Source: Planctomycetota bacterium (GTDB lineage: Bacteria > Planctomycetota > Planctomycetia > Pirellulales > PNKZ01). From it: DNA of 64,000 nt. Shown here piece after piece: positions 42-55,992 of this stretch. Under the pieces are notes generated by a model. That model was not told the DNA's origin. It did not search any database and worked only from the letters and a program-made list of their open reading frames with translations. The number at the start of each line of letters is the position of its first letter. Positions within the stretch are counted from its first letter, which is position 1. The position numbers were made by a program, and so were the translations under genes. The stretch covers positions 1-64,000 of the forward strand of contig JAFEBQ010000015.1 of assembly GCA_018242585.1 (NCBI GenBank), read 5' to 3'.

Positions 42-684
42 GTCGGCGAATTCGCCGTTCCAAAGGACACCGCGCACAGAAGCATCCGCACTCGCGCCCT
101 ACGCGGCGCGTTGCGTCGGCGAATTCGCCGACCCAATGATCAACCGACACTCCGGTGGCGAGGCGCATCACGAACTCGGGATAGAAGTCGGCGAATTCGC
201 CGACCCAATGATCAACCGACACGAACAGTTAGAGACATGCCGCGGTTGCGGCAGTTCAAGTCGGCGAATTCGCCGACCCAATGATCAACCGACACTGCCC
301 CAGTGTTTCCCACACCGCCAACCGCTCCAGCGTCGGCGAATTCGCCGACCCAATGATCAACCGACACCTATCTGGACGCGATGGAAGCGATGTTCGAGGT
401 CGAGTCGGCGAATTCGCCGACCCAATGATCAACCGACACTAATCACCGCATGGCTACCCCTCCCCGCCGACCCAATGATCAACCGACACACGAATCCGAC
501 CCTGTATTGTTTTTCGCCGACCCAATGATCAACCGACACTGTTCAGCAATCTCCATCTTGACCGAGCCATCAGGTCGGCGAATTCGCCGACCCAATGATC
601 AACCGACACACCACGTTATCGGATTGGTGCTGTTATGAGCGTCGCGACGTCGGCGAATTCGCCGACCCAATGATCAACCGACAC
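42..684. CRISPR. CRISPR array, 10 repeats of 36 nt and 9 spacers
   Basis: Repeats lie at 42-77, 115-150, 187-222, 260-295, 332-367, 404-439, about 465-489, about 513-539, 574-609 and 649-684. Complete repeats are 36 nt. The first 18 nt are a perfect palindrome (GTCGGCGAATTCGCCGAC); the second half can be read at 133-150. Full-length units have unrelated spacers of 34-39 nt. The repeat at 42-77 keeps the first 16 nt but matches only about 11 of the last 20. Such decay usually marks the leader-distal end, so transcription right to left is favoured; in that direction the hairpin directly abuts the following spacer. No cas gene is present, so the CRISPR type cannot be assigned. The array might continue left of the window edge. 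Confidence 0.95.
440..539. repeat. Two consecutive truncated CRISPR units of exactly 50 bp
   Basis: Units 440-489 and 490-539 are 50 bp each, against 70-75 bp for the others. In both, the first 9-11 nt of the repeat (the left half of the palindrome) are missing, while the remaining 25-27 nt (about 465-489 and 513-539) match the consensus exactly. The spacer parts are only about 25 and 23 nt and differ from each other, so this is not a simple duplication of one unit. Without the left half the repeat RNA cannot form its hairpin. Confidence 0.85.
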
Positions 685-905: not shown

Positions 906-1901
906 CTAGCGAATCGTGCCGCTGGCCGAGGTATAGCGATCGGGATTGGCGCGGAACTTGGCCAACGTGTCTGGGCTCTGAAACAAGTAAATCCGCTGCG
1001 AGTAGAACACCCCGCAAGCAATCGCGCCGGGAACTTGTTGCTGCTGGTCAATGGCCAAAACCGGGTCGTTGCCGGCCAGGGCCGGGCTGTAATGATCGGG
1101 CTGGGCCAAGAAGCGTTGCTGTTCGGCGGGACCGCTGAACAAGTACGTGCGCCCCTGGTGAATCGCGCCCCAGCGCGCGTCTCCAGGAACCCAGTTCTTG
1201 CGCTCGACGAGCGCCACCGGACAGTTTCCTTCCAACCCCAGCGGCGGCACGCCCGGCGGCAAGCCGACCGGACCCAAGGGCGCGGCAGGTGAGGCCGCGG
1301 CAGATTGATTTGATGTCGCAGCGGTTGGCGTCGCGGCGCCGTAGCCGGTTTGCATTGCTGCCGTGGCATGGGGAGTTGCGGCAGACGCGCTCGGCTGAGC
1401 GGGCGCGGCGGGCTGAGTTGTCGGCGCCGGAGGTTGCAACGGGCCGGCTGGCGTACCAGCCAGCAGGCCGGCGAGCGGGCCTTTGCTCTTGGCCCGCAGC
1501 GCGCCCTCGTAGATCGACGCGACATACCTCTCGGCGTTCTGCGGGCTTTGCACGCGCTCAACATATTTGCCGTACGAGGTCAGGATGACGTCGGCTGGAA
1601 TCGCCTTCACACCCCATTGCTGCGCCAGGTCGCGATGGGCGTCGAAATCGAGTTTCACGGCCACGAACGAGTTTTGCAGATCGCTGCCGAAGCCGGGCTT
1701 GTTGAAGACGTTTTGTTCAAGCTGCTTGCACGGCTTGCACCAGACAGCGCCGAAGTGAACGATGACCATCTTGTTGGACTGCACTGCTTTTTGCAGCGCG
1801 GTGTTCAGATCGGTTTCCCAGGTCAGGCCTTGGGCCCGGGCGGTGCCGGCGCAGGCGAGCGCGAGGATCAACGCGCTGCAGGTTTTCATGACCGATGACA
1901 T
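906..1901 (-). CDS. Exported thioredoxin-fold protein with two degenerate YHS-like repeats
   Basis: Predicted 331 aa. A signal peptide ends around ALACAGTARA-Q (residue 23). A thioredoxin fold follows, with the redox motif C55-K-P-C58 (AVWCKPCKQ) and a later AIPADV cis-proline region. A long Pro/Ala/Gln-rich linker leads to two related C-terminal repeats (NCPVALVE... and NDPVLAID...), each with a G/SQR-x-YLF core and ending in dPDxYxxA. These resemble YHS domains, but the Cys of the usual DPVCGM motif is absent. It probably acts in the periplasm in thiol-disulfide exchange or in binding a partner through the YHS-like units; substrate unknown. The start at 1901 has a weak GGA; the frame stays open to an ATG at 1934, and an ATG at 1889 is also possible. 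Confidence 0.8.
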   Translation of the reverse strand: MSSVMKTCSALILALACAGTARAQGLTWETDLNTALQKAVQSNKMVIVHFGAVWCKPCKQLEQNVFNKPGFGSDLQNSFVAVKLDFDAHRDLAQQWGVKAIPADVILTSYGKYVERVQSPQNAERYVASIYEGALRAKSKGPLAGLLAGTPAGPLQPPAPTTQPAAPAQPSASAATPHATAAMQTGYGAATPTAATSNQSAAASPAAPLGPVGLPPGVPPLGLEGNCPVALVERKNWVPGDARWGAIHQGRTYLFSGPAEQQRFLAQPDHYSPALAGNDPVLAIDQQQQVPGAIACGVFYSQRIYLFQSPDTLAKFRANPDRYTSASGTIR

Positions 1902-2085
1902 GGCAGTCGGTTCCGGGCTGAAACGAACGCTCATCGCTCGACGCTGTTGCTCCTATATCGGTCGTAGGGGTGGTGACGGTTGCGTAAAATTTGCGGTTCC
2001 TGGCTGCTGGCATGGCGGCCCAAGTGTCCGAGGCGAGGTTGCCCCAAGAGCACGGCAGCGCGACCTAAGTCCTTAAATAGTTGGC

Positions 2086-55869: not shown

Positions 55870-55988
55870 GGAGGGAAGTTGCTAGTTGCGGGTTGTTAGT
55901 TGCTAGTTTAAGAAAAGAAGTGACGAACGCCATCCATTTTCAAAGGTCTGTTTTAACTCGCAACTAGAAACCAGCAACTAGCAACTTC
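55870..55988. repeat. Two facing copies of the CTAGCAACT repeat
   Basis: GTTGCTAGTTGCGGGTTGTTAG-like phrases at 55870-55910 face AACTCGCAACTAGAAACCAG-like phrases at 55952-55988. They are reverse complements, so together they form an imperfect inverted repeat between the divergent glycerate-kinase and YyaL-like genes. Confidence 0.75.
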
Positions 55989-55992
55989 CTTT

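Follow-up and report, generated by a model that had tools for sequence, protein, structure and literature searches.

Type I-G (Dpsyc) arrays in genomes of the same order (e.g. L298 and L297) have 36-nt repeats with a strong, near-palindromic hairpin of 7-8 bp near one end, and spacers of 34-39 nt. Type I-B arrays with a Cas4-Cas1 fusion (e.g. L275) combine 36-nt repeats ending in ...CAC with spacers of 34-40 nt and a weaker hairpin inset from the repeat ends, and the II-C-like arrays of the order mostly have spacers of 29-30 nt. These comparison arrays were taken from cas1 loci of same-order genomes. Within type V, an adaptation study gives modal spacer lengths of 35 nt (V-B) and 29 nt (V-A) (PMC9419969), and this type is comparatively prominent in Planctomycetota (PMC12669027). 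In the 36-nt repeat of type V-J (CasPhi/Cas12j), the 5' half is largely without structure and the hairpin is on the spacer side; the repeat of CasPhi-2 (Cas12j), GTCGGAACGCTCAACGATTGCCCCTCACGAGGGGAC, ends in a hairpin (sequence from PMC11048056; fold computed). Among order relatives, we also observed an array with the repeat GTCGGACAATTGCCCCGCAACTTAGGGGATTAAGAC beside a 312-aa Cas1 (L312:3995-4770).

The locus at positions 42-684 of the window (the whole stretch of DNA analysed, 64,000 nt) is a CRISPR array whose repeat has no relative in the collections searched. It shares with type I-G the repeat length, the strong hairpin near one end and the spacer range, but the hairpin lies 0 nt from the spacer instead of 4-5 nt and the sequence similarity is insignificant; no I-G cas genes were seen in the genome, in searches that covered Cas1, Cas3 HD and RAMP proteins. 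With type I-B it has in common the repeat length, the ...CAC terminus and the spacer range, but neither the inset, weaker hairpin nor the sequence, and no Cas3 exceeded the threshold in this genome. The type II-C locus of the same genome also has a 36-nt repeat, but of different sequence (GTTGCGGGTTGGTCGCAGGCAGGGATCAGTTACACT), with spacers of 29-30 nt against 34-39 nt in the window and a complete cas9-cas1-cas2 set. The window array resembles type V-J if it is reversed, but zinc-ribbon and RuvC-III searches of the assembly detected no effector, and sequence similarity was again insignificant. Repeat comparisons with the I-G, I-B and II-C sets and CasPhi-2 returned nothing significant and, judging by these comparisons, the CRISPR type cannot be assigned from the repeat sequence. 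An apparent likeness to the V-B repeat of Alicyclobacillus was weak, differed between tests and was not used. A palindromic hairpin near the repeat end is ordinary in this order, and does not by itself indicate a single effector, since the I-G order-mates carry theirs 4-5 nt from the spacer. The preliminary description had argued from a hairpin abutting the spacer to a single-effector crRNA, a step that loses its force where strong hairpins touching or near the spacer are common.

Architecture of the array

The array consists of seven full repeats of 36 nt, all identical, a pair of identical repeats truncated to 25 nt, and a single decayed copy (Table 1). The regular spacers (34, 36, 36, 36, 37, 37 and 39 nt; n = 7) are all different. 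Identical direct repeats that alternate with unique, regularly sized spacers show this to be a genuine, if short, CRISPR array. The full repeat, GTCGGCGAATTCGCCGACCCAATGATCAACCGACAC, is exact at each of its seven positions, and all nine copies (seven full and two of 25 nt) are without any substitution. The first half of the repeat, 18 nt long, is a perfect palindrome, GTCGGCGAATTCGCCGAC; this feature had been pointed out previously and is borne out by the exact copies and by the predicted RNA fold, a 7-bp stem with an AATT loop (forward direction, -12.8 kcal/mol with z -3.5; reverse, -12.0 kcal/mol with z -1.0). The 64 kb contain no perfect 18-nt palindromes other than the seven in the full repeats, and GTCGGCGAATTCGCCGAC has no further copy elsewhere in the genome.

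The left-most copy has kept 16 nt, matches the repeat at 11/20 of the remaining positions and stands in register. In all likelihood this is a real repeat that has decayed and not a chance match, because only 247 of ~63,280 window 20-mers (0.4%) match the second half of the repeat equally well, and because of its register. The two exact 25-nt repeats (465-489 and 515-539) were missing from the first list of repeats.

Table 1. Units of the CRISPR array (window positions) and the type II-C locus of the same assembly
Feature	Position	Strand	Remark
Decayed repeat	42..77	.	first 16 nt intact, 27/36 overall
Full 36-nt repeat	115..150	.	exact
Full 36-nt repeat	187..222	.	exact
Full 36-nt repeat	260..295	.	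exact
Full 36-nt repeat	332..367	.	exact
Full 36-nt repeat	404..439	.	exact
Short spacer, 25 nt	440..464	.	ahead of truncated repeat
Truncated repeat, 25 nt	465..489	.	exact, without GTCGGCGAATT (5' stem arm and loop)
Short spacer, 25 nt	490..514	.	ahead of truncated repeat
Second truncated repeat	515..539	.	identical 11-nt loss
Full 36-nt repeat	574..609	.	exact
Full 36-nt repeat	649..684	.	exact, right end of array
Complete type II-C locus	L270:3800-8293 (contig C35)		cas9, cas1, cas2, 32-repeat array

Contig edge, cas genes and related repeats

The left neighbours of the array are invisible because the window begins at base 1 of its contig (C15): the contig ends 41 bp beyond the array, which thus borders an assembly break. 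The assembly comprises 5.57 Mb in 56 contigs and is 99.9% complete; its gene content suggests a planctomycete-like organism. No cas genes were found near the array in the visible window, in agreement with the preliminary description, which had considered an orphan system possible; as far as can be seen, the array is an orphan. At a contig edge such an absence is uninformative, and it points to the assembly edge rather than to a demonstrated orphan system. Contig ends were examined over up to 20 kb each for repeat copies and overlaps; the repeat occurs at no other contig end, and a leftward extension of the array was abandoned, there being no overlapping contig end.

The only cas1 of the assembly (C35:28294-29013, typed Cas1_II) belongs to the complete type II-C locus, together with Cas2_II, a 1047-aa Cas9 and an array of 32 repeat copies (GTTGCGGG...ACACT) with spacers of 29-30 nt. 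A second Cas1 was not found in the assembly. RAMP proteins, the mark of type III, gave no match at E 0.1, and Cas3 HD gave nothing over the cut-off. There is no second full Cas9 in the assembly; an HNH domain on C40 lies within a 220-aa frame. The Cas12f/TnpB-type zinc ribbon (PF07282), the profile with which Cas12 effectors were sought genome-wide, gave a best E of 0.04, below the cut-off. Matches to the RuvC-III motif D-x-N-A-A-x-N in the assembly were not in nucleases, and a heuristic ranking brought no large K/R-rich unknown protein to prominence at the contig ends. Judging by Cas1 and Cas3 HD, the assembly contains no operon of type I-B or I-G with cas4-cas1, cas3 and cas8/cas7; the gap could hold one.

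The exact repeat is absent from GTDB contigs and IMG/VR, and no copy within 3 mismatches occurs in 296 genomes of the order. The 397 genomes of the class yielded three isolated single matches to a 25-nt core and no array. A gapped repeat pattern gave, among the matches listed for GTDB contigs, only chance hits and no array of the window repeat. It had been suggested that relatives be searched for the same 36-nt repeat; no relative in these collections carries it. Nothing useful came of looking for protospacers, whether four of the spacers were compared with IMG/VR or the array with records of phages and plasmids.

Direction of transcription and the truncated units

The hairpin lies immediately 5' of each spacer only if the array is transcribed from right to left. 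Mutated repeats build up at the leader-distal end (PMC4869251), and the decayed repeat at the left end therefore favours a leader on the right. The truncated repeats are simply made only with a leader on the left, and the right side offers scant room for a leader, with 36 bp (685-720; 69% GC) up to a long hairpin element and no promoter-like site detected there. The left flank is visible for 41 bp (68% GC). Both visible flanks are GC-rich; an AT-rich leader could lie left of contig base 1, outside the contig. The right-to-left reading of the preliminary description keeps the support of the decayed repeat, but the truncated repeats and the short right flank favour the opposite reading. The evidence on direction conflicts. 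Guides starting with the hairpin and continuing into the spacer would speak for right-to-left transcription, and guides starting within ...GATCAACCGACAC and continuing into the spacer for left-to-right transcription.

The oddest detail of the array is the pair of truncated units with 25-nt spacers at 440-539. In both of these adjacent units the repeat is reduced from 36 to 25 nt and the preceding spacer from about 36 to 25 nt, each being 11 nt short, or about one helical turn. The truncation points are identical, at the boundary between the loop and the 3' stem arm, and the units are arranged as full-(25)-short-(25)-short-(34)-full. Rulers that set the second integration site have been documented (PMC6895254). 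If units entered from the left and the integration point lay 11 nt within the repeat, the copy next to the leader would stay full and the one on the older side would become short. If the leader were on the right, a truncation of the repeat next to it would be expected to pass to every unit added afterwards, but the last two repeats at the right end are of full length. Alternatively, independent 22-nt deletions at the two junctions are possible. If the truncated units hold in reads, they would be a natural record of a register error of Cas1-Cas2 integration, and would also give the direction of the array.

Origin of the array

We consider it probable (about 0.6) that this is an ordinary array of a system separate from the type II-C locus, probably one whose adaptation module is of the Cas4-Cas1 type (I-B, I-G or V-B); its cas genes would either fall in the assembly gap or have disappeared. 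This is supported by the exact periodicity of the array, its position at the contig edge, the single and unrelated cas1, and the mismatch of both repeat and spacers with II-C. The nine error-free repeat copies suggest recent activity. The assignment of the adaptation module is suggested by spacer length, as spacers of same-order arrays measure 34-40 nt in type I-B and 34-39 nt in type I-G. The corresponding cas genes would lie beyond the contig break left of the array, unless lost; if the system is functional, the array would be transcribed and processed around the hairpin, and the products would guide an effector. Against this explanation, no cas gene has been seen with this repeat and no relative has it, a cas1 module would be expected in a 99.9%-complete assembly unless it falls in a gap, seven regular spacers are few for assigning the kind of system, and the repeat is not significantly similar to those of the I-G, I-B and II-C sets. 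A true orphan or relic, in which the strain has lost its cas genes and the array has stayed behind with no function, is unlikely: it would account for the lack of fitting cas genes in so complete an assembly, and for the decayed and the two truncated repeats. Any decay would have to be very recent, however, given that seven full and two truncated repeats are without substitution, and with the contig break 41 bp beyond the array the cas genes may simply be out of sight.

The preliminary description had raised the possibility of an uncharacterised or orphan system, with a hairpin arrangement known from some single-effector crRNAs. A reading along these lines is a type V or VI-like system without cas1, read from right to left, in which, as in Cas12a or CasPhi, the hairpin immediately precedes the spacer on its 5' side. 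In the reversed array the 18-nt hairpin indeed makes up the second (3') half of the repeat and adjoins every spacer, and the CasPhi-2 repeat likewise ends in a hairpin; the decayed left repeat is compatible with a right-side leader, and the prominence of type V in Planctomycetota fits as well. We nevertheless regard such a system as improbable. Neither a zinc ribbon (Cas12f/TnpB-type) over the cut-off, nor the D-x-N-A-A-x-N motif in a nuclease, nor a prominent K/R-rich candidate in the heuristic ranking of contig ends was found, the repeat has no significant similarity to that of CasPhi-2, the spacers exceed the 29-nt mode of V-A, and the right flank has only 36 bp without a promoter-like site. 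In view also of the edge position, the conflicting direction, the commonness of the geometry and the Cas4-Cas1-like spacer length, an uncharacterised single-effector system is not supported. More specifically, a type V-like single effector might lie beyond the contig break and use a self-palindromic, spacer-abutting crRNA hairpin unlike those in the genomes searched, with an integrase that sometimes stops one helical turn short and so leaves paired 25-nt repeats and spacers; we think this very improbable. Finally, the type II-C Cas9 might use the array in trans as an accessory array, its locus being the only CRISPR-Cas locus found and the two repeats aligning weakly in a global comparison (p about 0.006 against shuffles). 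Nearly all of the repeat sequence differs, though, and a stricter local test gave p about 0.5; as the spacers are 34-39 nt long against 29-30 nt, an integrase other than that of II-C probably built the array, and we give use in trans hardly any credence.

Long inverted repeats near the array and elsewhere

The element to the right of the array is an inverted repeat at 721-868 with 41-nt arms and a predicted RNA fold of z about -7 to -8, situated just downstream of a thioredoxin-like gene at 906-1934(-). It was considered as a tracrRNA or leader and rejected; its antirepeat-like duplex (-19.3 kcal/mol) was bettered by 1/400 random window 50-mers. Because the intergenic regions of this genome are rich in long inverted repeats, with 63 comparable ones in the 2.07 Mb examined, the hairpin was set aside and treated as unrelated to the CRISPR system. 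A further long inverted repeat, of the GTTGCTAGTTGC type, is located at 55872-55991 of the window, and similar sequences occur at many other sites in the genome.
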